From the NCBI GenBank assembly GCA_030765065.1, contig CM060985.1, positions 6,262,001 through 6,326,000 on the forward strand: DNA of 64,000 nt. The letters run 5' to 3'. Source of the DNA: Deroplatys truncata. Lineage: Eukaryota > Arthropoda > Insecta > Mantodea > Mantidae. Position numbers and translations under genes: made by a program. The notes below the pieces were generated by a model. That model had not been told where the DNA came from, searched no databases, and worked only from the letters and a program-made list of their open reading frames with translations. This document shows positions 27,675-58,135 of the stretch, in pieces (position 1 is the stretch's first letter; each line of letters starts with the position of its first letter).

Positions 27675-27682
27675 GTGTGAAT

Positions 27683-28696: not shown

Positions 28697-28767
28697 GATG
28701 TTCGATGGAATTTCACGTTGAAAGAATAAAGTATGCAGAGTGCTTAGATCGCTGTGTTCTCACAATA

Positions 28768-29504: not shown

Positions 29505-29507
29505 ATA

Positions 29508-29775: not shown

Positions 29776-30086
29776 ACCAAAATGCGCAAGTCAATTCATA
29801 TACAATTAATTAATAAAAAAATATTTAATTGTATTCATCGATCAGTGAGACCATTATTTAGTTTTAATAACGTATGTAATATTTAACTATAATGTTAACC
29901 TATTTATTTATTTTTAATAACATATGTAATATTCACCTATAATGTTAACCGAATCATTTATTTTAATAACATTTATAATATTTAACTATAATGTTATCCG
30001 TATTTATTTTATTTTTAATAACATATGTAGTATTCACCGATCAATGAGACGCTTATTTATTTTTAATACCGTATGTAATATTTCTT

Positions 30087-36648: not shown

Positions 36649-38921
36649 GAAGGTACGACATTCTTCTAGTGAGAACAGGGACAACTTTGGGAGAGGTAAA
36701 GTACCGTGACTACCCAGTGGCTACAGTTATATTGAAGGTATGACACTCTGCTAGTGAGAACAGGGACAACCTCGGGAGAGGTAAAGTACCGTGACTACCC
36801 ATTGGCTACAGTTATATTGAAGGGACAACACTCCGCTAGTGAGAACAGGGACACCTCGGAGAGATAAAGTACCGTGACTACCCAGTGGCTACAGTTATAT
36901 TGAAGGGACGACACTCTGCTAGTGGGAACAGGGACAACTTCGGGAGAGGTAAAGTACCGTGACTACCCAGTGGCTACAGTTATATTGAAGGGACGACACT
37001 CTGCGAGGGAGAACAGGGACAACTTCAGGAGAGGTAAAGTACCGTGACTACCCAGTGGCTACAGCTATATTGAAGGGACGACACTCTGCTAGTGAGAAAA
37101 GGGAATGCTACACTTCGGGAGAGGTAAAGTACCGTGACTACCCAGTGGCTACAGTTATATTGAAGGGACGACACTCTGCTAGTGGGAACAGGGACAACTT
37201 CGGGAGAGGTAAAGTACCGTGACTACCCAGTGGCTACAGTTATATTGAAGGGACGACACTCTGCGAGGGAGAACAGGGACAACTTCGGGAGAGGTAAAGT
37301 ACCGTGACTACCCAGTGGCTACAGTTATATTGAAGGGACGACACTCTGCTAGTGAGAACAGGGAATGCTACACTTCGGGAGAGGTAAAGTACCGTGACTA
37401 CTCAGTGGCTACAGTTATATTGAAGGTACGACACTCTGCTAGTGAGAACTGGGACAACCTCGGGAGAGGTAAAGTACCCAGTGGCTACAGTTATATTAAA
37501 GGGACGACACTCCGTTAGTGAGAACAGGGAATGCTACACTTCGGGAGAGGCAAAGTGCCGTGACTACACAGTGGCTACAGTTATATTGAAGGGACGACAC
37601 TCCGTTTATGAGAACAGGGAATGCTACACTTCGGGACAGGAAAAGTACCGTGACTACCCAGTGGCTACAGTTATATTGAAGGGACGACACTCCGTTAGTG
37701 AGAACAGGGAATGCTACACTTCGGGACAGGAAAAGTACTGTGACTACCCAGTGGCTACAGTTATATTGAAGGGACGACACTCCGTTAGTGAGAACAGGGA
37801 ATGCTACACTTCGGGAGAGGTAAAGTACCGTGGCTACCCAGTGGCTACAGTTATATTGAAGGGACGACACTCCGCTAGTGAGAAGAGGGAATGCTACACT
37901 TCGGGAAGGTAAAGTACCGTGACTACCCAGTGACTACAGTTATATTCAACGGACGACACTCTGCTAGTGAGAACAGGGATAACTTCGGGAGAGGTAAAGT
38001 ACCGTGACTACCCAGTGGCTACAGTTATATTGAAGGTATGACACTCTTCTAGTGAGAACAGGGAACCTTTCGGGAGAGGTAAAGTACCGTGACTACCCAG
38101 TGGCTACAGTTATATTGAAGGTACGACACTCTGATAGTGAGAACAGGGACAACCTTGGGAGAGGTAAAGTTCCGTGACTACCCAGTAGCTACAGTTATAT
38201 TGAAGGGACAACACTCCGCTAGTGAGAACAGGGACACTTCGGAGAGGTAAAGTACCGTGACTACCCAGTGGCTACAGTAATATTGAAGGGACGACAATCC
38301 GCTAGTGAGAAGAGGGAATGCTACACTTCGGGAGAGGTAAAGTACCGTGACTACCCAGTGGCTACAGTTATATTAAAGGGACGACACTCTGCTAGTGAGA
38401 ACAGTGACTGCTAAACTTCGGGAGAGGTAAAGTACCGTGACTACCCAGTGGCTACAGTTATATTGAAGGGTCGACACTCTGCTAGTGAGAACAGGGACAA
38501 CTTCGGAGAGGTAAAGTACCGTGACTACCCAGTGGCTACAGTTATATTGAAGGGACGACACTCTGCTAGTGAGAACAGGGACAACTTCGGAGAGGTAAAG
38601 TACCGTGACTACCCAGTGGCTACAGTTATATAGAAGGTACGACACTCTGCTAGTGAGAACAGGGGACAACTTCGGGAGAGGTAAAGTACCGTGACTACCC
38701 AGTGGCTACAGTTATATTGAAGGTACGACACTCTGCTAGTGAGAACAGGGATAACCTCGGGAGAGGTAAAGTACCGTGACTACCCAGTGCCTACAGTTAT
38801 ATTGAAGGGACGACACTCTGCTAGTGAGAACAGGGACAACTTCGGGAGAGATAAAGTACCGTGACTACCCAGTGCCTACAGTTATATTGAAGGGACGACA
38901 CCCTGCTAGTGAGGACAGGGA
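36649..38921. repeat. 85/90-bp minisatellite array, left portion (about 26 units)
   Basis: Units contain GGTAAAGTACCGTGACTACC, CAGTGGCTACAGTTATATTG and ACACTCTGCTAGTGAGAACA. The 85-bp form has GGGACAACTTCGG and the 90-bp form GGGAATGCTACACTTCGG. The array starts abruptly after the preceding array and breaks off at the left end of the palindromic element. Confidence 0.97.
38916..38921. repeat. Target-site duplication, left copy (CAGGGA)
   Basis: CAGGGA is part of the array unit. It is present immediately outside both ends of the palindromic element (second copy 57,695-57,700), and the joined flanks would restore a normal unit. Because the target is repetitive, this is slightly weaker than a duplication in single-copy DNA. 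Confidence 0.72.
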
Positions 38922-38931
38922 AGTAGTATTA

Positions 38932-39080
38932 GTCCCGGATGAGCCAATTGATTTAACGATAATCCTGCCGCTAGGGGCGCTGGTGTCGCTAGTGTCGGTG
39001 CGTGCGACGGCGGCGGCGGTGTGTTTGAAAAGCGCCCTGAGCGGTAGGATTATCGTTAAATGGGTTGGCTCATCCGGGAC
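38932..39080. repeat. Subterminal hairpin of the left arm (149 bp)
   Basis: Two ~50-nt stems starting GTCCCGGATGAGCCAA and ending TTGGCTCATCCGGGAC pair with about six mismatches around a GC-rich loop containing ACGGCGGCGGCGG. It starts 10 bp inside the element tip. No target duplication frames it, so it is either part of the terminus or a small inserted MITE. Confidence 0.88.
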
Positions 39081-39260
39081 GAGTTGAAAGAATTGAGGAA
39101 GTGACGTGGAGTGTTTTTGATTGGTTCGTTAATTTGGGGTGGGAGATGGAGGAAGGGAGATGGAGGAGTATGGAGGTCGCGTGATGGAGAGGAGCTGGGT
39201 GGTGAGGTGTTGTCTGTGCGGAGGTCGGTACTGAAAGAGGGGTAAAGATGGGGAGCGAGG

Positions 39261-39387
39261 GATAAAAAGTGTAACAGAAAGTGACGTGTGAAGTTGTGAT
39301 TGGTGGGAATAAGAAGTGATGTTATTGGTGGAAAGGAGCAAATGAAGGTTGTTGATTGGTAAGAATAAGAGGGATTATGATTGGTGG
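39261..39387 (-). promoter_or_regulatory. CCAAT-cluster promoter-like module, left arm copy 1
   Basis: On the minus strand there are four CCAAT boxes (CACCAATCA, ACCAATCA, CACCAATAAC, CACCAATCAC) about 23-32 bp apart, then CACGTCACTTTCTG and TTTTTATCCCTC. This order resembles an NF-Y plus CREB/ATF promoter. Function is inferred. Confidence 0.5.
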
Positions 39388-40333
39388 AAAAGAAAAAGTT
39401 GTGGGAGTGGGGTATGTTGGAGGTGATGGGAAAGGTGAGTTTTGCTAGCAGCAAGATTTGCAAAAGCCTGTCTTGAACTGATCAGCAATTTTTGAACGTC
39501 GGATGGTAGTTTTCTTGAGTGGATAGAGAGATGGGGGCGATATGAGATGCGGTGGCGAAAATGGGGACTAGACAAGGTTGTTGAGACAAGAGGTTTAAGG
39601 ACGAGGAAATTTGGAGGTTAGTGGTGAACACGGCGGTCGCAAGAGGTGGGGGTAAGGAGATGCAGTGGTGAGAATGGGAACTAAAAGAAGATGGGGGTAG
39701 CAAGAGTTTTAGAAGAGTAGATTTTGAGGTTAAAATAGTGGGAACTAAAAATGGCGGAGGGTCTACGACAAGGAGATGCGGTGAGAACTAAACAAGATGG
39801 CGGTCGCAAGAGGAGGGTAAGGAGATTTGAGGTTACAGTACGAAAACACGAAAGGATATATTCCTACGCCAAGCAGGTCCGAAAAATAATTATGCGTGTG
39901 GTACTTACCTGTTACCGGTGTGGATGCGTCACCAAAAGCGCGGCACGCGAGGCGGAAAAATAAAAGCAAACTGTTTTTGAAAATGCTTAACCAGCTTTAA
40001 GATCAACCAACATCACTACGCACTGATATACCTAGGTTTTTAAAGCGGTACAGACACCCTTTGCAGAGGCGTAATTTAACTATACCAAAAACCTGGTACT
40101 GGACCATCGTGATGGTCGCTAGCGTACGTAGGAGCAGGGTTCTCAAGCCGGTCGAAAGCGGTCAAAAACGTGTACGACGTAGGTGTTCGCAGTAGCTGCT
40201 GTCGAGTCAACCGTCGAGGTGTGAATAAACGAGATCTGTTCTCGCCGGCAATTTGGTTCGGAGATGTGAGCAGCGGCGAGGTGTTGTCTGTGCGGAGGTC
40301 GGGACTGAAAGAGGGAAAAGATGGGGAGCGAGG

Positions 40334-40461
40334 GATAAAAAGTGTAACAGAAAGTGACGTGTGAAGTTGTGATTGGTGGGAATAAGAAGTGATTTTATTG
40401 GTGGAAAGGAGCAAATGAAAGTTGTTGATTGGTAAGAATAAGAGAGGTTATGATTGGTGGA
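40334..40461 (-). promoter_or_regulatory. CCAAT-cluster promoter-like module, left arm copy 2
   Basis: Same order and spacing as copy 1: four CCAAT boxes, CACGTCAC, TTTTTATCCC, with a few substitutions. The CCAAT boxes and the CRE-like core are unchanged. Confidence 0.5.
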
Positions 40462-41458
40462 AAGAAAAAGGAGTGGGGTATGTTGGAGGTGATGGGAAAG
40501 GTAAGTTTTGCTAGCAACAAGATTTGCAAAAGCCTGTCGTGAACTGATCAGCAATTTTTTGAACGTTGGATGGTAGTTTTCTTGAGTGGATAGAGAGATG
40601 GGGCGATATGAGATGCGGTGGCGAAAATGGGAACTAAACAAGGTGGTTGAGACAAGAGGTTTAAGGACGAGGAAATTTGGAGGTTAGTGGTGAACATGGC
40701 GGTCGCAAGAGGTGGGGGTAAGGAGACGCGGTGGTGAGAATGGGAACTAAAAGAAGATGGCGGTAGCAAGAGGTTAGAAGAGTAGATTTTGAGGTTAAAA
40801 TAGCGGGAACTAAAAATGGCGGAGGGTCTGCGACAAGGAGATGCGGTGAGAACTAAACAAGATGGCGGACGCAAGAGGTGGGTAAGGAGGTTTGAGGTTA
40901 CAGTACCAAAACACGAAAGGATATATTCCTACGCCAAGCAGGTCGGAAAAATAATTATGCGTGTGTTACTTACCTGTTACCGGTGTGGATGCGTCACCAA
41001 AAGCGCGGCACGCGAGGCGGAAAAATAAAAGCAAACTGTTTTTGAAAATGCTTAACCAGCTTTAAGATCAACCAACATCACTACGCACTGATATACCTAG
41101 GTTTTTAAAGCGGTACAGACACCCTTTGCAGAGGCGTAATTTAACTATACCAAAACCTGGTACTGGACCATCGTGATGGTCGCTAGCGTACGTAGGAGCA
41201 GGGTTCTCAAGCCGGTCGAAAGCGGTCAAAAACGTGTACGACGTAGGTGTTGGCAGTAGCTGCTGCCGAGGCAACCGTCGAGGTGCGAATGAACGAGATC
41301 TGTTCTTGCAGGCAATCTGGTTGAGAGATGAGAGGCGCGGTGGTAAAAATGTGAACTAAATAAGATGGCGGAGGCACGAAGTTGAGGTTAAGGAGCGGCG
41401 AGGTGTTGACTGTGCGGCGGTTGGGGTCTGAAAGAGGGGGAAAGATGGCGAACGAGGG

Positions 41459-41585
41459 ATAAAAAGTATAACAGAAAGTGACGTGTGAAGTTGTCATTGG
41501 TGGGAATAAGAAGTGATGTTATTGGTGGAAAGGAACAAATGAAAGTTGCTGATTGGCGAGAATAAGAGAGATTATGATTGGTGGA
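41459..41585 (-). promoter_or_regulatory. CCAAT-cluster promoter-like module, left arm copy 3
   Basis: Has CGCCAATCA and CACCAATGAC variants, CACGTCAC and ATACTTTTTATCCC. Sequence between the boxes is more diverged than the boxes. Confidence 0.5.
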
Positions 41586-41699
41586 AAGAAAAAAAGGTGT
41601 GGGAGTGGGGTATGTTGGAGGTGATGGAAAAGGCAAGTTTTGCTACCAACAACATTTGCAAAAGCCTATCCAGAACTCATCAGCAATTTTAAATAACTA

Positions 41700-42240
41700 G
41701 TGTTTCGGGGGTTTTCTCTGGTTGGTAGACGAATGCAAGCTGTTTCTACCATACTTATATTATTCGTCTTTTTCCTTTTTTTTTTTTAAAATGACTAGTT
41801 TTTTTTTTTTTTTTTTTTTGGGAGTTTTCTGCGGATGGTAAACAAATGCAAGCTCTTTCTGCTTTTTCATAGGTTTTCCCTGGTTGGTAGGCGTTTTCTG
41901 TACTGGTTGACGAAGGCGTTTCTAATTTTGGAGGTTTTCTCAGGTTTTTAGCGGTTGTCCCTGCCCGGTAGGCAAATGATGAAGTTTTACCTTGTCGGCG
42001 CACGGATACTAGGCACGTACTGGCGCGCACACACACACACACACACACAGAGAGAGACAGACAGACACACAGACAGGCACACACACACGGACATGTTTCC
42101 AAAAATGCTTTTTTTTTTTTTTTTTTTTTTTTTTTTTGATTCAGGAGGTCTCAAAACGTGTATTTCCGGTGAAATCTCGGTATCGAATTTTTGGGCGGAA
42201 TGCAATACTTCCCCTACTTACTATACGTAGTAGAGAAAGT
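41700..42240. repeat. Low-complexity zone: poly-T, CA/GA microsatellites and a family A tail
   Basis: Contains poly-T runs (41,775-41,787; 41,800-41,819; 42,110-42,137), a (CA)n/(GACA)n tract (42,028-42,090) and imperfect repeats of TTTTCCCTGGTTGGTAGGCG at 41,710-41,960. 42,140-42,236 is the last 100 bp of a family A copy. Confidence 0.8.
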
Positions 42241-42457
42241 AAAAAAGTATTGAAAAATTTAAGGAAATAACAAGCAATATCTCAAAAGTGTACTATCTTG
42301 TTTTCAAGGGTTTTCCAGATCGGTAAGCGTTAGAATACTCTTAGAGCTTTTTTCAGGTTTTTTAGCGGTTGTCCCTGGCCGGTAGGCAATTGATAAAGTT
42401 TTTCTATAACGACGTCGTTTTGGCTTGTGGCGCACGGTTCCTAGGCACGTACTGGCG

Positions 42458-42496
<39 letters not shown>

Positions 42497-43271
42497 ATAG
42501 TAGCGTATAAAAAAAACTGATTTGTTACACTCACATAACTTTCTCTACTCTTGTACAATCTAATTGGTAGCTTTTAAGCGATAGTCAAATATTTTAACGC
42601 TGGTTGCTATGTGGCGAATTCCATTCTGTTTGCATGTTCAGGACATAAAAAAAATGAATAAACGAATTTGAGAAAAAGTATAAGTATTGGAAAATTTAAG
42701 GAAATAACAAGCAATATCTCGAAAACGGTTCACTCAACAAAAGAAACGTATATGACATAAGTTGTGTATTTTAACGCGATCTACATTTTTTGTGTAGTAA
42801 AATTTTGTCTATCTCTTATGGTTTACCAGTTATGCAAAAAAGTCGTTCACAATGAAGAATATTTTTGGAGACATTCCCAGAAAATTCGAGATATACATTT
42901 TATTTGACATGACAATATCTTAAACATATGATGTTTTAATCAAAATCGTTAGAGCCGTTTTTGAGAAAATTAAAATTTTCGAAAAATGTTCCATGTAAAG
43001 GGTAGTCTGGGGTGGGGGGATTTTCTTGAAAACCTTCGTGTCGCATCTCTGGAAGATACTGAACCTAAATACCAAGTTTGGTGTTTATCCGACTGTTCGT
43101 TTTTGAGTTATGCTGTTCACAGACACACAGACACACAGACAGACACACACACGGACATGTTTCCAAAAATGCTTTTTTTTTTTTGGATTCAGAGATTCTC
43201 AAAACATGTATTTCCAGTGAAATCTCGGTAACGAATTTTTGGGTGGAATGCAATACTTCCCCTACTTACTA
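42241..43271 (+). repeat. Family A copies in the left arm (first block)
   Basis: 42,241-42,300 is a short fragment. 42,303-42,460 is non-family sequence with a repeated TTTTCCAGATCGGTAAGCG-type phrase, and a (CG)/(CA) microsatellite lies at 42,455-42,492. 42,505-43,271 is a nearly complete forward copy ending GTAGTAGAGAAAGT. Confidence 0.8.
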
Positions 43272-45665
43272 TACGTAGTAGAGAAAGTAAAAATGAATAA
43301 CGCATTTGAGAAAAAGTATAAGTATTGGAAAATTTAAAGGAAATAACAAGCAATATCTGGAAAAACGGTTCACTCAACAAAATAAATGTATATGGCATAA
43401 GTTGTGTATTTTAACGCGATCTACATTTTTTGTGTAGCAAACTTTTGTCTATCTCTTACGGTTTATCAGTTATGAAAAAGTCGTTCACAATGAAGAATTC
43501 TTTTGGAGACATTCCCAGAAAATTCGAGATATACATTTCATTTCTCTCGACATTATCTTAAATATATGATATTTTCATCAAAATCGTTAGAGCCATTTTT
43601 TAATACAAAGAGAACGGGATTTCACAAGTGAAACAGTACTGTGATAACGATACCACTGAAACAAAAAAAAAAATCTGATGTGTAACACTCACATGACTTT
43701 CTCAACTCTTGTACAAAGTATTTTTACAAACGCTTATTCCCCATCTAGTTCATGTTAATCGAGATAAACATTTGCAAAATCTATTTTATTGCTAATTTTC
43801 TTGTATAAAAAAAAAATCTGATGTGTAACACTCACATGACGTTCTCTACTCTTGTACAAAGTATTTTTACAAACGCTTATGCTCCATCTAGTTCATGTTA
43901 ATCGAGATAAACATTTGCAAACTCTATTTTATTGCTAATTTTCTTGTAGATGTAGGGGAAAATATATTTACAAGGGGAATATAGAAAAACAGTAGCCTTT
44001 AAGCACATACATATCTCTTAATAGCTGGTTGCTATGTGCAACACCATTCTTTTTGCCACAGATTAATACTGTTTGCATATCAAAGACAAAAAAAAATGAA
44101 TAACGAAGTCCCATTTGAGAAAATAAATATTGGAAAATTAACAAACAATATCTCGAAAACGGTTCACTCAACAAAATAAATGTATATGGCATAAGTTGTG
44201 TATTTTAACGCGATCTACATTTTTTGTGTAGCAAACTTTTGTCTATCTCTTACGGTTTATCAGTTATGAAAAAGTCGTTCACAATGAAGAATTCTTTTGG
44301 AGACATTCCCAGAAAATTCGAGATATACATTTCATTTCTCTCGACATTATCTTAAATATATGATATTTTCATCAAAATCGTTAGAGCCATTTTTTAATAC
44401 AAAGAGAACGGGATTTCACAAGTGAAACAGTACTGTGATAACGATACCGCTGAAACAAAAAAAAAATCTGATGTGTAACACTCACATGACTTTCTCAACT
44501 CTTGTACAAAGTATTTTTACAAACGCTTATTCCCCATCTAGTTCATGTTAATCGAGATAAACATTTGCAAAATCTATTTTATTGCTAATTTTCTTGTATA
44601 AAAAAAAAATCTGATGTGTAACACTCACATGACGTTCTCTACTCTTGTACAAAGTATTTTTACAAACGCTTATGCTCCATCTAGTTCATGTTAATCGAGA
44701 TAAACATTTGCAAACTCTATTTTATTGCTAATTTTCTTGTAGATGTAGGGGAAAATATATTTACAAGGGGAATATAGAAAAACAGTAGCCTTTAAGCACA
44801 TACATATCTCTTAATAGCTGGTTGCTATGTGCAACACCATTCTTTTTGCCACAGATTAATACTGTTTGCATATCAAAGACAAAAAAAAATGAATAACGAA
44901 GTCCCATTTGAGAAAATAAATATTGGAAAATTAACAAACAATATCTCGAAAACGGTTCACTCAACAACAAAAATGTATATTACATAAGATGTGTATTTTA
45001 ACGCGATCTACATTTTTTGTGTAGTAAAATTTTGTCTATCTCTTACGGTTTTTCAGTTATGAAAAAGACGTTCACAATGAAGAATACTTTTGGAGACATT
45101 CCCAGAAAATTCGAGATATACATTTCATTTCTCACGACATTATATTAAACATACGATATTTTTCATCAAAATCGTTAGAGCCATTTTTTTAATACAAAGA
45201 GAACGGGATTTCACAAGTGAAACAGTACTGTGATAACGATACCAACAAAACTAATTATTATTCACCCACTGAAACACATAAAAAAAATCTGATGTGTAAC
45301 ACTCACATGACTTTTCTCATCTCTTGTACAAAGTATTTTTACAAACGCTTATTCCCCATCTAGTTCATGTTAATCGAGATAAACATTTGCAAACTCTGTT
45401 TTATTGCTAATTTTGTTGTAGATGTAGGGAAAATATATTTACAAGGGGAATATAGAAAAACAGTAGCCTTTAAGCACATACATATCTCTTAATAGCTGGT
45501 TGCTATGTGCAGTACCATTCTTTTTGCCACAGATTAATACTCTTTGCATATCAAAGACAAAAAAAAAAAAATGAATAACGAATTCCCATTTGAGAAAATA
45601 ACTATTGGAAAATTTAAGTAAATAACAAGCAATATCTCGAAAACGGTTCACTCAACAATAAAGAT
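43272..45665 (+). repeat. Family A derivative in three tandem copies (~794 and ~680 bp)
   Basis: The phrase AACGGTTCACTCAACAAAAT recurs at ~43,364 and ~44,158, and again near 44,951 and 45,644 in variant form, so two ~794-bp units and one shorter unit are in tandem. The first two are almost identical, including an internal double head (ATCTGATGTGTAACACTCAC twice per unit). Confidence 0.88.
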
Positions 45666-46160
45666 GTATATGACATAAGTTGTGTATTTTAACGCGATCT
45701 ACATACTTTCGTACTCACCTATAAGATATAGAGGGTAGAGGTCGTACGAACGTAGCACTTTGAGAATCTATATTCAACAGTTGGTGTTACTCCTTAGAAA
45801 GGAAGTATCTGCTGATTTTTATTTAATTCTTTACATTTTACATAGCACGTATGCACTGGCACAACACAAAAGCACTACACACAATACTCAGTTTTAATAT
45901 TTGCACTAATAACATCAGGAATAACTGAAGTCTGCAAACAGTCATTTCCCATGTGCAGCCTTACGTACAGAAAACGTGTGTGGCTGATCTATGTGTAAAA
46001 AGAGCCTGAGAGCGGATGTACGTCAGCGGTAAAATCTTTTAAATGCATTTTTATTGGCGATGGTAGAAATCGTGCAGTGGTGGATCGTGAAAATTCATAT
46101 AAATGGATGTATCACCTCATAATAAGCCTCTATATACCAAGAATATTGAGTTTTTAAAAA
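45666..46160. other. Single-copy-like spacer in the left arm
   Basis: No gene recognised. On the minus strand AATTAAATAAAAATCAG (near 45,825) contains a consensus AATAAA polyadenylation signal, so the segment could be an old 3' untranslated region. Confidence 0.35.
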
Positions 46161-47727
46161 GTCAGCAACTGTACCTGTGTTTCTATACGTGAACGTCAGA
46201 TGGCAGCTTCGATACGTGTCCACGGAGACCTTAGTGCTAGGCAACTGTACCTCTGTTTCTATACGTGAACGGCAGATTGCAGCTTCGATACGTGTCCACG
46301 GAGACCTTAGTGCTAGGCAACTGTACCTCTGTTTCTATACGTGAACGGCAGATTGCAGCTTCGATACGTGTCCACGGAGACCTTAGTGCTAGGCAACTGC
46401 ACCTCTGTTTCTATACGTGAACGGCAGATTGCAGCTTCGATACGTGTCCACGGAGACCTTAGCGCTAGGCAACTGCACCTCTGTTTCTATACGTGAACGG
46501 CAGATTGCAGCTTCGATACGTGTCCACGGAGACCTTAGTGCTAGGCAACTGTACCTCTGTTTCTATACGTGAACGGCAGATTGCAGCTTCGATACGTGTC
46601 CACGGAGACCTTAGTGCTAGGCAACTGTACCTCTGTTTCTATACGTGAACGGCAGATTGCAGCTTCGATACGTGTCCACGGAGACCTTAGTGCTAGGCAA
46701 CTGCACCTCTGTTTCTATACGTGAACGGCAGATTGCAGCTTCGATACGTATCCACGGAGACCTTAGTGCTAGGCAACTGCACCTCTGTTTCTATACGTGA
46801 ACGGCAGATTGCAGCTTCAATACGTGTCCACGGAGACCTTAGTGCTAGGCAACTGTACCTCTGTTTCTATACGTGAACGGGAGATTGCAGCTTCGATACG
46901 TGTCCACGGAGACCTTAGTGCTAGGCAACTGCACCTCTGTTTCTATACGTGAACGTCAGATTGCAGCTTCGATACGTGTCCACGGAGACCTTAGTGCTAG
47001 GCAACTGCACCTCTGTTTCTATACGTGAACGGCAGATTGCAGCTTCGATACGTATCCAGGGGGACCTTAGTGCTAGGGAACTGCACCTCTGTTTGTATAC
47101 GTGAACGGCAGATTGCAGCTTCAATACGTGTACACGGAGACCTTAGTGCTAGGCAGCTGTACCTCTGTTTCTATACGTGAACGGCAGATTGCAGCTTCGA
47201 TACGTGTCCACGGAGATCTTAGTGCTAGGCAGCTATACCTGTTTCTATACGTCAACGGCAGATTGCAGCTTCGATACGTGTTCACGGAGACCTTAGTGCT
47301 AGGCAACTGTACCTGTGTTTCTATACGTGTCCACGGAGACCTTAGTGCTAGACAACTGTACCTCTGTTTCTATACGTGAACGGCAGATTGCAGCTTCAAT
47401 ACGTGTCCACGGAGACCTTAGTGCTAGTGCTAGGCAACTATACCTCTGTTTCTATACGTGAACGGCAGATTGCAGGTTCGATACGTGTCCACGGAGATCT
47501 TAGTGCTAGGCAACTATACCTGTTTCTATACGTGAACGGCAGATTGCAGCTTCGATACGTGTCCACGGAGACCTTAGTGCTAGGCAACTGTACCTGTGTT
47601 TCTATACGTGAACGTCAGATGGCAGCTTCGATACGTGTCCACGGAGACCTTAGTGTTAGGCAACTGTACCTCTGTTTCTATACGTGAACGGCAGATTGCA
47701 GCTTCGATACGTGTCCACGGAGACCTT
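46160..47727 (+). repeat. 76-bp minisatellite, left arm (about 20 units)
   Basis: Units contain CTGTACCTCTGTTTCTATAC, GTGAACGGCAGATTGCAGCT, TCGATACGTGTCCACGGAGA and CCTTAGTGCTAGGCAA. Most are 76 bp. A few near 47,220-47,440 carry small insertions or deletions, and these are mirrored in the right arm. Confidence 0.96.
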
Positions 47728-47760
47728 TCGCTTCAGGTGACAAAATAACACTAGGCACTT

Positions 47761-47935
47761 GTGTGCCGTGGTGTAAGCCGCAATCACGGTATTGGTAGCG
47801 TGGATCTCCTTGGGGCTCTCCTCGGAGTTACCTCAACACCACGTACATGACCTGGTTCGTCACGGGTACGCAGGTCTGCACTACCACTTCCTCGGCGTTG
47901 AGCAGGCCCAGGAGGCGATCGTACCGGTACACCAG
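47761..47935 (-). pseudogene. Protein-primed family B DNA polymerase scrap, left-arm copy
   Basis: Mirror image of the fragment at 48,676-48,850, with the same internal frameshift. It is transcriptionally oriented away from the palindrome centre. Confidence 0.5.
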
Positions 47936-48018
47936 CTAGCACGTGGACATGTTATCGCGCTGTGGTGTTGCGTGTGCGAGGTATGGAAACTCAAGGACGC
48001 AAAACATGCACGACCGAG

Positions 48019-48148
48019 GGTTAAAAAGCAGAACAAGTAGTGACGTGGAGCGTTGTGATTGGTGTAAATAAGACGATCTCTGATAGGTGGACAAATTGAA
48101 ATAACGTGATGTGATAGGCGAAAATAAAATCAAAGGTGATTGGATGAA
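48019..48148 (-). promoter_or_regulatory. CCAAT-cluster promoter-like module, left arm copy 4
   Basis: A more diverged member near the palindrome centre. It has CCAATCA, two CCTATCA variants and CCAATCAC, then CACGTCAC and TTTTTAACCCTC. It lies ~85 bp upstream of the polymerase scrap on the same strand, which would place it at a gene's 5' side in the ancestral element. Confidence 0.45.
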
Positions 48149-48292
48149 AAATGACGAGAAGGAATTAGCGGTGAATTTGTGAACTAAGATGGCGAAGATT
48201 TTTTTTTTTTTTTAAAAAAAAGGATAATATAAGTACGGCAACTGTAACGGTTTACGGCAAACGCGCGCCGCGCAATGCGTCACGCCCGGGCA

Positions 48293-48319
48293 ATAAAACA
48301 AAAATCATATTGAGCAAGA
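48293..48319. other. Palindrome centre (27-bp spacer)
   Basis: An AT-rich spacer ending in TTGAGCAAGA separates the two arms. The arms meet it as CGCCCGGGCA on one side and TGCCCGGCG on the other, differing by one inserted C. Inner arm sequence GCGCGCCGCGCAATGCGTCA is strongly GC-rich. Confidence 0.9.
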
Positions 48320-48462
48320 TGCCCGGCGTGACGCATTGCGCGGCGCGCGTTTGCCGTAAACCGTTACAGTTGCCGTACTTATATTATCCTTTTTTTTAAA
48401 AAAAAAAAAAAATCTTCGCCATCTTAGTTCACAAATTCACCGCTAATTCCTTCTCGTCATTT

Positions 48463-48592
48463 TTCATCCAATCACCTTTGATTTTATTTTCGCCTATCAC
48501 ATCACGTTATTTCAATTTGTCCACCTATCAGAGATCGTCTTATTTACACCAATCACAACGCTCCACGTCACTACTTGTTCTGCTTTTTAACC
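48463..48592 (+). promoter_or_regulatory. CCAAT-cluster promoter-like module, right arm copy 4
   Basis: Mirror of 48,019-48,148. Reads rightward toward the polymerase scrap at 48,676. Confidence 0.45.
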
Positions 48593-48675
48593 CTCGGTCG
48601 TGCATGTTTTGCGTCCTTGAGTTTCCATACCTCGCACACGCAACACCACAGCGCGATAACATGTCCACGTGCTAG

Positions 48676-48850
48676 CTGGTGTACCGGTACGATCGCCTCC
48701 TGGGCCTGCTCAACGCCGAGGAAGTGGTAGTGCAGACCTGCGTACCCGTGACGAACCAGGTCATGTACGTGGTGTTGAGGTAACTCCGAGGAGAGCCCCA
48801 AGGAGATCCACGCTACCAATACCGTGATTGCGGCTTACACCACGGCACAC
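48676..48850 (+). pseudogene. Protein-primed family B DNA polymerase scrap, right-arm copy
   Basis: Seen: an open GC-rich frame from 48,676 (LVYRYDRLLGLL at its start) is closed by TAA at 48,781. The following codons in the +1 frame (from ~48,782) read SEESPKEIHATNT and end with VIAAYTTAH at 48,850. About 30 bp later the 76-bp array begins. The run IAAYTTAH with the preceding hydrophobic and Asn/Glu-rich context resembles the segment upstream of the catalytic motif C in protein-primed PolB of Polinton type. Family assignment is from motif recognition, not a search. At under 60 residues, frameshifted and cut at both ends, it cannot be functional. It is the best coding evidence for what the palindrome came from. 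Confidence 0.52.
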
Positions 48851-48883
48851 AAGTGCCTAGTGTTATTTTGTCACCTGAAGCGA

Positions 48884-50446
48884 AAGGTCTCCGTGGACAC
48901 GTATCGAAGCTGCAATCTGCCGTTCACGTATAGAAACAGAGGTACAGTTGCCTAACACTAAGGTCTCCGTGGACACGTATCGAAGCTGCCATCTGACGTT
49001 CACGTATAGAAACACAGGTACAGTTGCCTAGCACTAAGGTCTCCGTGGACACGTATCGAAGCTGCAATCTGCCGTTCACGTATAGAAACAGGTATAGTTG
49101 CCTAGCACTAAGATCTCCGTGGACACGTATCGAACCTGCAATCTGCCGTTCACGTATAGAAACAGAGGTATAGTTGCCTAGCACTAGCACTAAGGTCTCC
49201 GTGGACACGTATTGAAGCTGCAATCTGCCGTTCACGTATAGAAACAGAGGTACAGTTGTCTAGCACTAAGGTCTCCGTGGACACGTATAGAAACACAGGT
49301 ACAGTTGCCTAGCACTAAGGTCTCCGTGAACACGTATCGAAGCTGCAATCTGCCGTTGACGTATAGAAACAGGTATAGCTGCCTAGCACTAAGATCTCCG
49401 TGGACACGTATCGAAGCTGCAATCTGCCGTTCACGTATAGAAACAGAGGTACAGCTGCCTAGCACTAAGGTCTCCGTGTACACGTATTGAAGCTGCAATC
49501 TGCCGTTCACGTATACAAACAGAGGTGCAGTTCCCTAGCACTAAGGTCCCCGTGGATACGTATCGAAGCTGCAATCTGCCGTTCACGTATAGAAACAGAG
49601 GTGCAGTTGCCTAGCACTAAGGTCTCCGTGGACACGTATCGAAGCTGCAATCTGACGTTCACGTATAGAAACAGAGGTGCAGTTGCCTAGCACTAAGGTC
49701 TCCGTGGACACGTATCGAAGCTGCAATCTCCCGTTCACGTATAGAAACAGAGGTACAGTTGCCTAGCACTAAGGTCTCCGTGGACACGTATTGAAGCTGC
49801 AATCTGCCGTTCACGTATAGAAACAGAGGTGCAGTTGCCTAGCACTAAGGTCTCCGTGGATACGTATCGAAGCTGCAATCTGCCGTTCACGTATAGAAAC
49901 AGAGGTGCAGTTGCCTAGCACTAAGGTCTCCGTGGACACGTATCGAAGCTGCAATCTGCCGTTCACGTATAGAAACAGAGGTACAGTTGCCTAGCACTAA
50001 GGTCTCCGTGGACACGTATCGAAGCTGCAATCTGCCGTTCACGTATAGAAACAGAGGTACAGTTGCCTAGCACTAAGGTCTCCGTGGACACGTATCGAAG
50101 CTGCAATCTGCCGTTCACGTATAGAAACAGAGGTGCAGTTGCCTAGCGCTAAGGTCTCCGTGGACACGTATCGAAGCTGCAATCTGCCGTTCACGTATAG
50201 AAACAGAGGTGCAGTTGCCTAGCACTAAGGTCTCCGTGGACACGTATCGAAGCTGCAATCTGCCGTTCACGTATAGAAACAGAGGTACAGTTGCCTAGCA
50301 CTAAGGTCTCCGTGGACACGTATCGAAGCTGCAATCTGCCGTTCACGTATAGAAACAGAGGTACAGTTGCCTAGCACTAAGGTCTCCGTGGACACGTATC
50401 GAAGCTGCCATCTGACGTTCACGTATAGAAACACAGGTACAGTTGC
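48884..50446 (-). repeat. 76-bp minisatellite, right arm
   Basis: Mirror of 46,160-47,727 with the same order of unit variants. Confidence 0.96.
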
Positions 50447-50945
50447 TGACTTTTTAAAAACTCAATATTCTTGGTATATAGAGGCTTATTATGAGGTGAT
50501 ACATCCATTTATATGAATTTTCACGATCCACCACTGCACGATTTCTACCATCGCCAATAAAAATGCATTTAAAAGATTTTACCGCTGACGTACATCCGCT
50601 CTCAGGCTCTTTTTACACATAGATCAGCCACACACGTTTTCTGTACGTAAGGCTGCACATGGGAAATGACTGTTTGCAGACTTCAGTTATTCCTGATGTT
50701 ATTAGTGCAAATATTAAAACTGAGTATTGTGTGTAGTGCTTTTGTGTTGTGCCAGTGCATACGTGCTATGTAAAATGTAAAGAATTAAATAAAAATCAGC
50801 AGATACTTCCTTTCTAAGGAGTAACACCAACTGTTGAATATAGATTCTCAAAGTGCTACGTTCGTACGACCTCTACCCTCTATATCTTATAGGTGAGTAC
50901 GAAAGTATGTAGATCGCGTTAAAATACACAACTTATGTCATATAC
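50447..50945. other. Single-copy-like spacer, right arm
   Basis: Mirror of 45,666-46,160. It contains AATTAAATAAAAATCAG on the plus strand (~50,785) and no coding sequence. Confidence 0.35.
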
Positions 50946-53340
50946 ATCTTTATTGTTGAGTGAACCGTTTTCGAGATATTGCTTGTTATTTACTTAAATT
51001 TTCCAATAGTTATTTTCTCAAATGGGAATTCGTTATTCATTTTTTTTTTTTGTCTTTGATATGCAAAGAGTATTAATCTGTGGCAAAAAGAATGGTACTG
51101 CACATAGCAACCAGCTATTAAGAGATATGTATGTGCTTAAAGGCTACTGTTTTTCTATATTCCCCTTGTAAATATATTTTCCCTACATCTACAACAAAAT
51201 TAGCAATAAAACAGAGTTTGCAAATGTTTATCTCGATTAACATGAACTAGATGGGGAATAAGCGTTTGTAAAAATACTTTGTACAAGAGATGAGAAAAGT
51301 CATGTGAGTGTTACACATCAGATTTTTTTTATGTGTTTCAGTGGGTGAATAATAATTAGTTTTGTTGGTATCGTTATCACAGTACTGTTTCACTTGTGAA
51401 ATCCCGTTCTCTTTGTATTAAAAAAATGGCTCTAACGATTTTGATGAAAAATATCGTATGTTTAATATAATGTCGTGAGAAATGAAATGTATATCTCGAA
51501 TTTTCTGGGAATGTCTCCAAAAGTATTCTTCATTGTGAACGTCTTTTTCATAACTGAAAAACCGTAAGAGATAGACAAAATTTTACTACACAAAAAATGT
51601 AGATCGCGTTAAAATACACATCTTATGTAATATACATTTTTGTTGTTGAGTGAACCGTTTTCGAGATATTGTTTGTTAATTTTCCAATATTTATTTTCTC
51701 AAATGGGACTTCGTTATTCATTTTTTTTTGTCTTTGATATGCAAACAGTATTAATCTGTGGCAAAAAGAATGGTGTTGCACATAGCAACCAGCTATTAAG
51801 AGATATGTATGTGCTTAAAGGCTACTGTTTTTCTATATTCCCCTTGTAAATATATTTTCCCCTACATCTACAAGAAAATTAGCAATAAAATAGAGTTTGC
51901 AAATGTTTATCTCGATTAACATGAACTAGATGGAGCATAAGCGTTTGTAAAAATACTTTGTACAAGAGTAGAGAACGTCATGTGAGTGTTACACATCAGA
52001 TTTTTTTTTTATACAAGAAAATTAGCAATAAAATAGATTTTGCAAATGTTTATCTCGATTAACATGAACTAGATGGGGAATAAGCGTTTGTAAAAATACT
52101 TTGTACAAGAGTTGAGAAAGTCATGTGAGTGTTACACATCAGATTTTTTTTTTTGTTTCAGCGGTATCGTTATCACAGTACTGTTTCACTTGTGAAATCC
52201 CGTTCTCTTTGTATTAAAAAATGGCTCTAACGATTTTGATGAAAATATCATATATTTAAGATAATGTCGAGAGAAATGAAATGTATATCTCGAATTTTCT
52301 GGGAATGTCTCCAAAAGAATTCTTCATTGTGAACGACTTTTTCATAACTGATAAACCGTAAGAGATAGACAAAAGTTTGCTACACAAAAAATGTAGATCG
52401 CGTTAAAATACACAACTTATGCCATATACATTTATTTTGTTGAGTGAACCGTTTTCGAGATATTGTTTGTTAATTTTCCAATATTTATTTTCTCAAATGG
52501 GACTTCGTTATTCATTTTTTTGTGTCTTTGATATGCAAACAGTATTAATCTGTGGCAAAAAGAATGGTGTTGCACATAGCAACCAGCTATTAAGAGATAT
52601 GTATGTGCTTAAAGGCTACTGTTTTTCTATATTCCCCTTGTAAATATATTTTCCCCTACATCTACAAGAAAATTAGCAATAAAATAGAGTTTGCAAATGT
52701 TTATCTCGATTAACATGAACTAGATGGAGCATAAGCGTTTGTAAAAATACTTTGTACAAGAGTAGAGAACGTCATGTGAGTGTTACACATCAGATTTTTT
52801 TTTTATACAAGAAAATTAGCAATAAAATAGATTTTGCAAATGTTTATCTCGATTAACATGAACTAGATGGGGAATAAGCGTTTGTAAAAATACTTTGTAC
52901 AAGAGTTGAGAAAGTCATGTGAGTGTTACACATCAGATTTTTTTTTTTTTGTTTCAGTGGTATCGTTATCACAGTACTGTTTCACTTGTGAAATCCCGTT
53001 CTCTTTGTATTAAAAAATGGCTCTAACGATTTTGATGAAAATATCATATATTTAAGATAATGTCGAGAGAAATGAAATGTATATCTCGAATTTTCTGGGA
53101 ATGTCTCCAAAAGAATTCTTCATTGTGAACGACTTTTTCATAACTGATAAACCGTAAGAGATAGACAAAAGTTTGCTACACAAAAAATGTAGATCGCGTT
53201 AAAATACACAACTTATGCCATATACATTTATTTTGTTGAGTGAACCGTTTTTCCAGATATTGCTTGTTATTTCCTTTAAATTTTCCAATACTTATACTTT
53301 TTCTCAAATGCGTTATTCATTTTTACTTTCTCTACTACGT
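50946..53340 (-). repeat. Family A derivative in three tandem copies, right arm
   Basis: Mirror of 43,272-45,665, reading in reverse orientation. A substitution near 52,512 (TTGTGTCTTTG instead of TTTTGTCTTTG) distinguishes it from the left arm. Confidence 0.88.
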
Positions 53341-54115
53341 ATAGTAAGTAGGGGAAGTATTGCATTCCACCCAAAAATTCGTTACCGAGATTTCACTGGA
53401 AATACATGTTTTGAGAATCTCTGAATCCAAAAAAAAAAAAGCATTTTTGGAAACATGTCCGTGTGTGTGTCTGTCTGTGTGTCTGTGTGTCTGTGAACAG
53501 CATAACTCAAAAACGAACAGTCGGATAAACACCAAACTTGGTATTTAGGTTCAGTATCTTCCAGAGATGCGACACGAAGGTTTTCAAGAAAATCCCCCCA
53601 CCCCAGACTACCCTTTACATGGAACATTTTTCGAAAATTTTAATTTTCTCAAAAACGGCTCTAACGATTTTGATTAAAACATCATATGTTTAAGATATTG
53701 TCATGTCAAATAAAATGTATATCTCGAATTTTCTGGGAATGTCTCCAAAAATATTCTTCATTGTGAACGACTTTTTTGCATAACTGGTAAACCATAAGAG
53801 ATAGACAAAATTTTACTACACAAAAAATGTAGATCGCGTTAAAATACACAACTTATGTCATATACGTTTCTTTTGTTGAGTGAACCGTTTTCGAGATATT
53901 GCTTGTTATTTCCTTAAATTTTCCAATACTTATACTTTTTCTCAAATTCGTTTATTCATTTTTTTTATGTCCTGAACATGCAAACAGAATGGAATTCGCC
54001 ACATAGCAACCAGCGTTAAAATATTTGACTATCGCTTAAAAGCTACCAATTAGATTGTACAAGAGTAGAGAAAGTTATGTGAGTGTAACAAATCAGTTTT
54101 TTTTATACGCTACTA

Positions 54116-54151
<36 letters not shown>

Positions 54152-54375
54152 CGCCAGTACGTGCCTAGGAACCGTGCGCCACAAGCCAAAACGACGTCGT
54201 TATAGAAAAACTTTATCAATTGCCTACCGGCCAGGGACAACCGCTAAAAAACCTGAAAAAAGCTCTAAGAGTATTCTAACGCTTACCGATCTGGAAAACC
54301 CTTGAAAACAAGATAGTACACTTTTGAGATATTGCTTGTTATTTCCTTAAATTTTTCAATACTTTTTTACTTTCT
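53341..54375 (-). repeat. Family A copies, right arm
   Basis: Mirror of 42,241-43,271, including a TG/CG microsatellite at 54,120-54,153. Confidence 0.8.
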
Positions 54376-54470
54376 CTACTACGTATAGTAAGTAGGGGAA
54401 GTATTGCATTCCGCCCAAAAATTCGATACCGAGATTTCACCGGAAATACACGTTTTGAGACCTCCTGAAT

Positions 54471-54507
<37 letters not shown>

Positions 54508-54915
54508 CATTTTTGGAAACATGTCCGTGTGTGTGTGCCTGTCTGTGTGTCTGTCTGTCTCTCTGTGTGTGTGTGTGTGTGTGTGCGCGCCAGTACGTGC
54601 CTAGTATCCGTGCGCCGACAAGGTAAAACTTCATCATTTGCCTACCGGGCAGGGGCAACCGCTAAAAACCTGAGAAAACCTCCAAAATTAGAAACGCCTT
54701 CGTCAACCAGTACAGAAAACGCCTACCAACCAGGGAAAACCTATGAAAAAGCAGAAAGAGCTTGCATTTGTTTACCATCCGCAGAAAACTCCCAAAAAAA
54801 AAAAAAAAAAAAAAAAACTAGTCATTTTAAAAAAAAAAAAGGAAAAAGACGAATAATATAAGTATGGTAGAAACAGCTTGCATTCGTCTACCAACCAGAG
54901 AAAACCCCCGAAACA
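54376..54915. repeat. Low-complexity zone, right arm
   Basis: Mirror of 41,700-42,240. Poly-A runs (54,474-54,506; 54,794-54,817; 54,829-54,840) are longer than in the left arm, as expected of independently mutating homopolymers or of sequencing error. Confidence 0.8.
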
Positions 54916-55030
54916 CTAGTTATTTAAAATTGCTGATGAGTTCTGGATAGGCTTTTGCAAATGTTGTTGGTAGCAAAACTTGCCTTTTCCATCACCTCCA
55001 ACATACCCCACTCCCACACCTTTTTTTCTT

Positions 55031-55157
55031 TCCACCAATCATAATCTCTCTTATTCTCGCCAATCAGCAACTTTCATTTGTTCCTTTCCACCAATAACAT
55101 CACTTCTTATTCCCACCAATGACAACTTCACACGTCACTTTCTGTTATACTTTTTAT
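55031..55157 (+). promoter_or_regulatory. CCAAT-cluster promoter-like module, right arm copy 3
   Basis: Mirror of 41,459-41,585. A consensus splice donor AACAG|GTAAGT follows downstream at 55,643 on the same strand. Confidence 0.5.
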
Positions 55158-55642
55158 CCCTCGTTCGCCATCTTTCCCCCTCTTTCAGACCCCAACCGCC
55201 GCACAGTCAACACCTCGCCGCTCCTTAACCTCAACTTCGTGCCTCCGCCATCTTATTTAGTTCACATTTTTACCACCGCGCCTCTCATCTCTCAACCAGA
55301 TTGCCTGCAAGAACAGATCTCGTTCATTCGCACCTCGACGGTTGCCTCGGCAGCAGCTACTGCCAACACCTACGTCGTACACGTTTTTGACCGCTTTCGA
55401 CCGGCTTGAGAACCCTGCTCCTACGTACGCTAGCGACCATCACGATGGTCCAGTACCAGGTTTTGGTATAGTTAAATTACGCCTCTGCAAAGGGTGTCTG
55501 TACCGCTTTAAAAACCTAGGTATATCAGTGCGTAGTGATGTTGGTTGATCTTAAAGCTGGTTAAGCATTTTCAAAAACAGTTTGCTTTTATTTTTCCGCC
55601 TCGCGTGCCGCGCTTTTGGTGACGCATCCACACCGGTAACAG

Positions 55643-55648
55643 GTAAGT
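55643..55648 (+). other. Consensus splice-donor sequence
   Basis: CGGTAACAG|GTAAGTAAC, a perfect CAG|GTAAGT, about 490 bp downstream of a promoter-like module on the same strand. The mirror copy is at ~40,973 on the minus strand. No acceptor could be assigned. Confidence 0.35.
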
Positions 55649-56154
55649 AACACACGCATAATTATTTTTCCGACCTGCTTGGCGTAGGAATATATCCTTT
55701 CGTGTTTTGGTACTGTAACCTCAAACCTCCTTACCCACCTCTTGCGTCCGCCATCTTGTTTAGTTCTCACCGCATCTCCTTGTCGCAGACCCTCCGCCAT
55801 TTTTAGTTCCCGCTATTTTAACCTCAAAATCTACTCTTCTAACCTCTTGCTACCGCCATCTTCTTTTAGTTCCCATTCTCACCACCGCGTCTCCTTACCC
55901 CCACCTCTTGCGACCGCCATGTTCACCACTAACCTCCAAATTTCCTCGTCCTTAAACCTCTTGTCTCAACCACCTTGTTTAGTTCCCATTTTCGCCACCG
56001 CATCTCATATCGCCCCATCTCTCTATCCACTCAAGAAAACTACCATCCAACGTTCAAAAAATTGCTGATCAGTTCACGACAGGCTTTTGCAAATCTTGTT
56101 GCTAGCAAAACTTACCTTTCCCATCACCTCCAACATACCCCACTCCTTTTTCTT

Positions 56155-56282
56155 TCCACCAATCATAACCTCTCTTATTCTTACCAATCAACAACTTTCA
56201 TTTGTTCCTTTCCACCAATAAAATCACTTCTTATTCCCACCAATCACAACTTCACACGTCACTTTCTGTTACACTTTTTATC
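56155..56282 (+). promoter_or_regulatory. CCAAT-cluster promoter-like module, right arm copy 2
   Basis: Mirror of 40,334-40,461, with one substitution (TTTGTTCC for TTTGCTCC) near 56,205. Confidence 0.5.
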
Positions 56283-56707
56283 CCTCGCTCCCCATCTTTT
56301 CCCTCTTTCAGTCCCGACCTCCGCACAGACAACACCTCGCCGCTGCTCACATCTCCGAACCAAATTGCCGGCGAGAACAGATCTCGTTTATTCACACCTC
56401 GACGGTTGACTCGACAGCAGCTACTGCGAACACCTACGTCGTACACGTTTTTGACCGCTTTCGACCGGCTTGAGAACCCTGCTCCTACGTACGCTAGCGA
56501 CCATCACGATGGTCCAGTACCAGGTTTTTGGTATAGTTAAATTACGCCTCTGCAAAGGGTGTCTGTACCGCTTTAAAAACCTAGGTATATCAGTGCGTAG
56601 TGATGTTGGTTGATCTTAAAGCTGGTTAAGCATTTTCAAAAACAGTTTGCTTTTATTTTTCCGCCTCGCGTGCCGCGCTTTTGGTGACGCATCCACACCG
56701 GTAACAG

Positions 56708-56713
56708 GTAAGT
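56708..56713 (+). other. Consensus splice-donor sequence
   Basis: Same CGGTAACAG|GTAAGT context as at 55,643, about 425 bp downstream of the module at 56,155-56,282. Mirror at ~39,908 on the minus strand. Confidence 0.35.
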
Positions 56714-57228
56714 ACCACACGCATAATTATTTTTCGGACCTGCTTGGCGTAGGAATATATCCTTTCGTGTTTTCGTACTGTAACCTCAAATCTCCTTACC
56801 CTCCTCTTGCGACCGCCATCTTGTTTAGTTCTCACCGCATCTCCTTGTCGTAGACCCTCCGCCATTTTTAGTTCCCACTATTTTAACCTCAAAATCTACT
56901 CTTCTAAAACTCTTGCTACCCCCATCTTCTTTTAGTTCCCATTCTCACCACTGCATCTCCTTACCCCCACCTCTTGCGACCGCCGTGTTCACCACTAACC
57001 TCCAAATTTCCTCGTCCTTAAACCTCTTGTCTCAACAACCTTGTCTAGTCCCCATTTTCGCCACCGCATCTCATATCGCCCCCATCTCTCTATCCACTCA
57101 AGAAAACTACCATCCGACGTTCAAAAATTGCTGATCAGTTCAAGACAGGCTTTTGCAAATCTTGCTGCTAGCAAAACTCACCTTTCCCATCACCTCCAAC
57201 ATACCCCACTCCCACAACTTTTTCTTTT

Positions 57229-57355
57229 CCACCAATCATAATCCCTCTTATTCTTACCAATCAACAACCTTCATTTGCTCCTTTCCACCAATAACATCAC
57301 TTCTTATTCCCACCAATCACAACTTCACACGTCACTTTCTGTTACACTTTTTATC
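57229..57355 (+). promoter_or_regulatory. CCAAT-cluster promoter-like module, right arm copy 1
   Basis: Mirror of 39,261-39,387. It is the outermost module and reads outward, toward the element end and the flanking host array. Confidence 0.5.
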
Positions 57356-57535
57356 CCTCGCTCCCCATCTTTACCCCTCTTTCAGTACCGACCTCCGCAC
57401 AGACAACACCTCACCACCCAGCTCCTCTCCATCACGCGACCTCCATACTCCTCCATCTCCCTTCCTCCATCTCCCACCCCAAATTAACGAACCAATCAAA
57501 AACACTCCACGTCACTTCCTCAATTCTTTCAACTC

Positions 57536-57684
57536 GTCCCGGATGAGCCAACCCATTTAACGATAATCCTACCGCTCAGGGCGCTTTTCAAACACACCGC
57601 CGCCGCCGTCGCACGCACCGACACTAGCGACACCAGCGCCCCTAGCGGCAGGATTATCGTTAAATCAATTGGCTCATCCGGGAC
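57536..57684. repeat. Subterminal hairpin of the right arm
   Basis: Mirror of 38,932-39,080. Ends GGCTCATCCGGGAC 10 bp before the element tip. Confidence 0.88.
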
Positions 57685-57694
57685 TAATACTACT

Positions 57695-58062
57695 CAGGGA
57701 TAACCTCGGGAGAGGTAAAGTACCGTGACTACCCAATGGCTACAGTTATATTGAAGGAACGGCACTCTGCTAGTGAGTACAGGGAATGCTACACTTCGGG
57801 AGAGGTAAAGTACCGTGACTACTCAGTGGCTACAGTTATACTGAAGGTACGACACTCTGCTAGTGAGAACAGGGATAACCTCGGGAGAGGTAAAGTACCG
57901 TGACTACCCAGTGGCTACAGTTATATTGAAGGGACGACACTCCGTTAGTGAAATCAGGGAATGCTACACTTCGGGAGAGGTAAAGTACCGTGACTACTCA
58001 GTGGCTACAGTTATACTGAAGGTACGACACTCTGCTAGTGAGAACAGGGACAACTTGTGGAG
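57695..58062. repeat. 85/90-bp minisatellite array, right portion (about 4 units)
   Basis: Resumes with CAGGGATAACCTCGGGAGAG, the continuation expected of the unit broken at 38,921. Units alternate 85- and 90-bp forms. Its presence beyond the palindrome shows that the palindrome interrupts the array. Confidence 0.95.
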
Positions 58063-58135
58063 AGGTGGCGTAGCGGTAGCGTGTGTGTCTCGCTTCCCGT
58101 TTTCGATCCCTGAGACCGCCCACCATGATCCGTGG
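58062..58135 (+). repeat. tRNA-derived SINE-like head
   Basis: GGTGGCGTAGCGGTAGCG resembles an A-box region and TTTTCGATCCCTGAGACC a B-box and T-arm, with tRNA-like spacing. It follows the array directly. Its body may extend through the GC-rich sequence to ~58,370, but no tail or target duplication was found. Confidence 0.45.

Follow-up and report, generated by a model that had tools for sequence, protein, structure and literature searches.

Structure and insertion site of the palindrome

The subject of this analysis is a near-perfect palindrome in the mantid Deroplatys truncata, located in a 64,000-nucleotide stretch of DNA that is referred to here as the window (assembly GCA_030765065.1, contig CM060985.1, positions 6,262,001 to 6,326,000). 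When the window was aligned with its own reverse complement, positions 38922–57694 were returned as one inverted match over the full 18,773 bp at 99.64%. The left arm (38922–48291, forward strand, 9,370 bp) begins with AGTAGTATTAGTCCCGG and the right arm (48321–57694, reverse strand, 9,374 bp) is its reverse complement; the palindrome starts with AGTAGT and its end, ACTACT, is the complement of the AGTAGTATTAGTCCCGG start. The arms are separated by an asymmetric spacer (48292–48320, forward strand) of 29 nt, 27 of them unpaired, which is identical in all 11 copies of the element that were read. An alignment of arm against arm contained 4 substitutions, 7 run-length differences in homopolymer or dinucleotide runs, and 1 difference in a C-run at the centre. 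Both alignments bear out the initial annotation, which had been made from the sequence alone and described mirror-image arms of ~9.37 kb around a 27-bp spacer with AGTAG...CTACT ends.

The palindrome interrupts an 85/90-bp minisatellite that occupies 36648–38921 on its left and continues at 57695–58066 on its right. It is bracketed by the hexamer CAGGGA (38916–38921 and 57695–57700), and when one CAGGGA is removed and the flanks are joined, a normal array unit results. The bracketing and the restored unit had been noted initially and hold up, and so does the continuation of the array on the right. Since CAGGGA recurs in the array units, the palindrome's own duplication is weaker evidence of a target-site duplication than usual. 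There are 720 pairs of AGTAG...CTACT motifs 0.5–30 kb apart in the window; the same 6 bp flank both sides in exactly two of them, the palindrome itself and another element at 24461–31510. A first search for terminal repeats with a flanking duplication produced 305 rows and was swamped by self-complementary hexamers inside palindromes. A second search returned 14 rows at 6 bp, among which only the palindrome's duplication differs from its own reverse complement; the element at 24461–31510 fell below the threshold of this search.

No open reading frame (ORF) of at least 100 aa from an ATG is present within the palindrome, and a six-frame translation of the left arm with stops read as X matched no Pfam family above the cut-off. 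The nearest miss was Catalase-rel (27.9 bits against a cut-off of 30.1, E = 2.6e-6), which fell in the minisatellite of the arm. The gene set of Maverick (Polinton) transposons, namely a protein-primed polymerase, integrase, ATPase, protease and capsid, was not recovered from the palindrome. From the lack of ORFs in the palindrome and of Pfam families in the left arm, it is clear that the element is not an autonomous Maverick. Positions 38922–46100 had no match in phage records, the 17-base terminus had none in viral contigs, and Rfam identified nothing in the whole window.

Two internal repeats can be recognized within the left arm: a tandem duplication of ~1.07 kb (39201–41340, forward strand; mirrored at 55276–57415) and a 76-bp minisatellite (46165–47727, forward strand; mirrored at 48884–50446). 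The anchored segment that holds the minisatellite is 1,610 bp long in 19 of the 22 arms compared. A dispersed repeat family at 8430–10270 and 42040–45704 of the window, and at the mirror of the latter, is common to the AT-rich part of the arm and the flanking genome (~66–94%).

Further copies and their number in the genome

The search was extended to the window's own genome (4.29 Gb). The first 579 bp of the palindrome had 3,027 candidate matches, and the best 40, which were scored, were all full length at 99–100%. Ten further copies were read as halves from other places with both ends among those matches, so that palindromes were favoured by the selection. Each of the ten can be followed along the arm from either end and contains the spacer, which in nine has arm sequence to its left and right as it does in the window copy (copy K with one base changed). 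The ends of the window copy and of the ten further copies are AGTAGT...ACTACT, which is the Maverick end motif, although the further copies provide no independent test of the motif because they were found by their likeness to this end. In copy D, arm sequence has been lost on one side of the spacer, which gives the impression of a palindrome being broken up after its insertion.

Exact 6-bp duplications flank every one of 21 elements checked with these ends (the window copy, the ten further copies, and the ten end pairs that come first on contig C1, five of which enclose a listed exact spacer). These duplications comprise 18 different sequences, and their symmetrised target consensus is N-A-C-G-T-N. 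Copies H and I have the same duplication, AGCGTT, in unrelated flanks. The 11 copies read are thus palindromes that were inserted whole, with exact 6-bp duplications and one shared asymmetric spacer. The initial proposal that the whole palindrome behaves as one mobile unit is upheld by the 21 duplications and by the ten palindromic copies, and the check it had named, namely further occurrences of the terminus next to differing 6-bp duplications, was borne out many times over.

Matches to the end of the element, counted at up to 2 mismatches, are distributed evenly between the orientations (2,179 + 2,180 = 4,359; control 0). The 100 ends listed were all exact and form 41 pairs 5.2–19.9 kb apart with a median of 18,055 bp, leaving 18 ends without a listed partner. 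Spacers occur in near-equal orientations as well (443 + 434 = 877; ≤2 mismatches; control 0). A tag from the inner arm, at position 8,840, occurs 851 + 857 = 1,708 times (≤2 mismatches). Of the 73 tags listed on contig C1, 66 form 33 inverted pairs and 7 are single; 32 of the 33 pairs are spaced at 1,048–1,058 bp, with one at 703 bp, and an exact spacer lies between the two tags in 32 of the 33. Conversely, 38 of the 40 spacers listed on C1 have a listed inner-arm tag within 1 kb. The palindromes therefore number in the hundreds by spacers and inner-arm tags together, at about 877 by the spacer count, or ~16 Mb of the genome at 18 kb each by simple arithmetic. The palindrome in the window is not a singleton, and an artefact is all but excluded.

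Non-palindromic elements with the same ends

By eye, the first ten end pairs on contig C1 fall into five that enclose a listed exact spacer and five that do not. The structure of one of the five spacer-less pairs was read and is not palindromic. It spans 19,028 bp with the duplication TACGTA, and it matches the arm at one end only. Its left 1.53 kb matches the arm throughout (1–1,347 at 95.9%), with 273–1,530 also matching the second tandem copy of the arm at 96.7%, while at its right end the match is limited to the first 159 bp at 95%. Beyond these 159 bp there are small stop-to-stop frames that point toward the end, the longest of 165 codons. A frame of 120 codons matches the middle of the element at 24461–31510 (29% over 89 aa, E = 6.7e-7), and a protein search with the ORF of this frame gave no match. 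A 52-bp piece of the right-end DNA matches the palindrome arms at 82–90%. Directly outside the right end are a long interspersed nuclear element (LINE)-type endonuclease and reverse transcriptase (L030:1526–3028).

The right-end DNA of the 19,028-bp element has 1,078 candidate matches in the genome, and the best 40 were scored at 98–100%. Two structural classes with these ends account roughly for the counts. Two left-end matches for each of 877 palindromes and one for each of 1,078 full-length elements give 2,832 compared to 3,027 candidates, and two ends for each member of both classes give 3,910 compared to 4,359. As the inner-arm tag occurs about twice per spacer, it belongs to the palindromes and has no match at ≤2 mismatches in most of the full-length class. 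The initial description of a unit in which essentially all sequence is terminal inverted repeat is accurate for the palindromes and has to be refined for the family, since the other class with the same ends is non-palindromic. By sequence comparison, the arm and the full-length class would part somewhere between 1.5 and 8.8 kb.

The second element in the window and coding Mavericks

The second element (24461–31510) is 7,050 bp long, has AGTAG...CTACT ends and the target-site duplication TACCGC, and carries terminal inverted repeats (TIRs) of at least 1 kb at 96.8%. Its six frames contained no Pfam family above the cut-off, and a protein search with an ORF resembling a short interspersed nuclear element (SINE) identified 3 hypothetical proteins. 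Genome-wide, 297 matches were found to a 27-base piece of its terminal repeat (140 and 157 by orientation; ≤2 mismatches; control 0), many of those listed being on the 707-Mb contig C16. One pair of matches on contig C5, ~16.8 kb apart, was read in two pieces and by eye has AGTAG ends with the duplication GACGTC, which fits the N-A-C-G-T-N target consensus. The terminal repeats of this 16.8-kb element and of the second element are related (86–96% in pieces).

ORFs of the C5 element match a double-jelly-roll capsid domain (E = 2.8e-109), the Pox_A32 packaging ATPase (1.1e-7) and an rve integrase (3.1e-7). From its genes and ends together, this genome contains a Maverick that has AGTAG ends and a 6-bp duplication, and the second element appears to be a gene-poor, reduced relative of this 16.8-kb Maverick. 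A genome-wide search for the capsid family PF21738 gave 7,124 candidates, of which the best 126 were scored, one of them with a stop; 0 of 14 control genomes had a match. These counts, together with the many near-equal scores among the rows, suggest a large and recent Maverick load. Inverted capsid pairs 9–22 kb apart were observed at C4:95173324/95185244, C10:54203865/54213293 and C16:687831100/687853440, and it is possible that these are palindromic or nested coding Mavericks. The window also contains other long minisatellites at 1–5443, 16800–23084, 31760–33000 and 33578–36647, with units of 73, 43, 78 and 45 bp, respectively.

Similarity of the two arms

The outer 2.87 kb of the 22 arms from the 11 copies was compared at 50 gap-free biallelic sites. 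The minor allele was found on both arms at 78 copy-sites and on one arm at 19. Minor alleles private to one copy were on both arms at 21 and on one arm at 10, while shared minor alleles were on both arms at 57 copy-sites and on one arm at 9. Since minor alleles lie mostly on both arms, the arms of a copy have mostly been copied from one another. In a tree of the arms, strong support unites the two arms of each of copies A, C and D; in E, G, H, J and K the two arms of a copy are identical, and B and F are unresolved. The two arms of copy I lie apart in the tree, which suggests recombination between copies.

The block of repeats between the anchors at 4,450 and 6,200 is the same on both arms of copy A and unlike that of other arms; these anchors were unclear in copy C and in the left arm of G. 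Comparing the two 1.07-kb tandem copies within the left arm gives differences at 42 of 1,065 positions, and at 43 in the right arm, whereas arm against arm the window copy shows a single difference in 2,142 positions of this stretch. Homogenization of the arms thus came long after the internal duplication arose.

Two further features of the palindrome were considered and dropped. The one-base difference at the centre could be read as a microhomology scar; however, a change in C-run length fits equally well, and since the other copies have the same centre (except for the deletion in D), the difference gives no evidence on origin. CpG values of 0.82–1.71 in windows along the arm, compared to 0.66 for all flanks, could be read as a sign of youth. 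When split by region, the values were 1.06 for the arm and 0.85–0.99 for three unique flanks. The low mean of the flanks was due to the minisatellites and the argument was abandoned.

Proposed origin and replication

The favoured explanation, to which a probability of roughly two in three is assigned, is that of an ~18-kb palindromic transposon family with Maverick ends and no recognizable genes, which likely originated by fold-back from one Maverick-type end and for which a Maverick polymerase and integrase are predicted to provide replication and insertion in trans. A Maverick would supply both the protein-primed polymerase and the integrase. During protein-primed, strand-displacing replication, each displaced palindrome strand would snap back into a hairpin, mismatches between the arms would be repaired in the hairpin to leave both arms alike, and the double-stranded product would then be inserted by the Maverick integrase. 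The first palindrome may have been made by a strand that, once displaced from one end, folded back to serve as its own primer. More tentatively, and at slightly less than even odds, the family may be a germ-line lineage of snap-back genomes: a defective Maverick derivative turned self-templating palindromic parasite, in which a 9-kb hairpin would form at each transposition and one arm would be rewritten on the template of the other, with ~900 palindromic copies beside ~1,000 full-length relatives. The initial label of a Polinton-like element rests on the ends, the duplication length and the genome context and not on genes, since the arms contain no recognizable Maverick gene.

Several observations weigh against a Maverick-dependent fold-back family. 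The palindrome has no ORF of 100 aa, its left arm has no Pfam family above the cut-off, and a comparison of the arm with the C5 Maverick found only short or low-complexity similarity. In the C5 Maverick itself, the integrase match is just below the curated cut-off (31.0 vs 32.6 bits) and no polymerase gene was identified; two large ORFs lack a Pfam match and the larger also lacks a match to a solved structure. The right-end 1.5 kb of the 19,028-bp element presents only small frames of up to 165 codons with no Pfam match, and none of the 126 listed capsids falls inside the 41 pairs formed by the 100 listed ends, as compared by eye. A simple snap-back of today's full-length element predicts that the inner-arm tag should be found there, and the counts disagree; the founder may have had a different interior, or the interior may have been replaced later. 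Among the arm comparisons, copies I and F account for all nine shared alleles confined to one arm, and the contrast in the inner segment is weak, with 0–7 differences per ~1,000 within a copy and 0–10 (mean 3.6) between the left arms of different copies.

The same arm data bear on the rival view of an old palindrome in which post-insertion gene conversion, known from mammalian Y palindromes, has maintained the likeness of the arms with no part for hairpin replication. Conversion in place would also yield the 21 private sites with the allele on both arms, and it could draw on the patchiness of copies F and I and on the weak contrast of the inner segment. It accounts poorly for shared alleles that occupy both arms in copies at unrelated places (57 copy-sites vs 9), from which the arms were alike before those insertions, and for the one-arm changes in minisatellite length in C, E and G that remained unconverted. 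It is considered improbable. A comparably low probability is given to a Foldback-like cut-and-paste transposon such as Galileo or FB, in which the whole element would be a long TIR grown by recombination or gap repair and moved by a conventional DDE transposase unrelated to Mavericks. Galileo has long TIRs, both of which carry tandem repeats and captured transposon pieces (PMC4168063), and the arms here likewise hold minisatellites and dispersed repeats. The same source gives duplications of 7–8 bp for Galileo, whereas exactly 6 bp was found in 21 of 21 elements here. Moreover, the ends agree with the Maverick motif, the genome also contains an element with AGTAG ends, a 6-bp duplication and ORFs that match integrase and capsid, and the terminal repeat is just 159 bp in the one non-palindromic copy seen.

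An assembly artefact, in which one arm was joined to its own complement, has to be weighed because the analysis rests on an assembly and not on reads, and fold-back reads can produce false palindromes in assemblies. Such a join would be expected to mirror the flank too. The same spacer is present at ten of ten other loci with different flanks and exact 6-bp duplications, and the 877 spacers are split near-equally between orientations (443 and 434). With so many copies that run through the same spacer and have different duplications, the chance of an assembly join is minute.

Comparison with known systems

As reported for vertebrate Mavericks (PMC8097293), (AGT)2//(ACT)2 is the commonest end motif, the duplications are 6 bp, the elements span 12,723–24,620 bp, and the terminal repeats of intact elements measure 46–1,447 bp. 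The palindrome shares the end motif and the 6-bp duplication, and its 18.8 kb lies inside this size range. It differs in that it has no recognizable genes and that the terminal repeat is the entire element, at 9.37 kb per arm. Galileo, a Foldback-like element of the P superfamily, is reported (PMC4168063) to have 7–8 bp duplications and, in the copy with the second longest TIRs, TIRs of 1,575/1,608 bp; the palindrome family has 6 bp, 9.37 kb and one spacer conserved across copies, and it lies outside the 7–8 bp range. Ginger2 elements also have a 6-bp target duplication; however, they have TGTNR ends and RTATAY targets (PMC2836005), unlike the AGTAGT ends and NACGTN-type targets found here. 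In the literature searched, no all-TIR palindromic Maverick was found described among the matches listed, as judged from titles and abstract openings.

Long perfect palindromes are generally thought to be unstable. Despite this presumed instability, an 18-kb palindrome is here the propagating form of a successful transposon. To our knowledge, the DNA replication step of Mavericks has not been observed directly. With hundreds of copies as natural replicates, the family could be used to ask how Maverick DNA is replicated, because hairpin copying predicts which alleles land on both arms.

The nearest analogue with respect to replication is found in the snap-back defective genomes of adeno-associated virus (AAV). 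These are self-complementary duplexes of one genome end that are able to replicate with Rep and helper functions (PMC8235507), and they differ in being subgenomic particles of a parvovirus rather than a transposon family with target-site duplications. The palindrome family would also preserve, in the genome, a record of how defective genomes form in a virus-like element. Adenoviruses present a related case with their jumping-back initiation and fold-back defective genomes, and a repeated terminal trinucleotide with protein-primed strand displacement would fit the AGTAGT ends of the palindromes.

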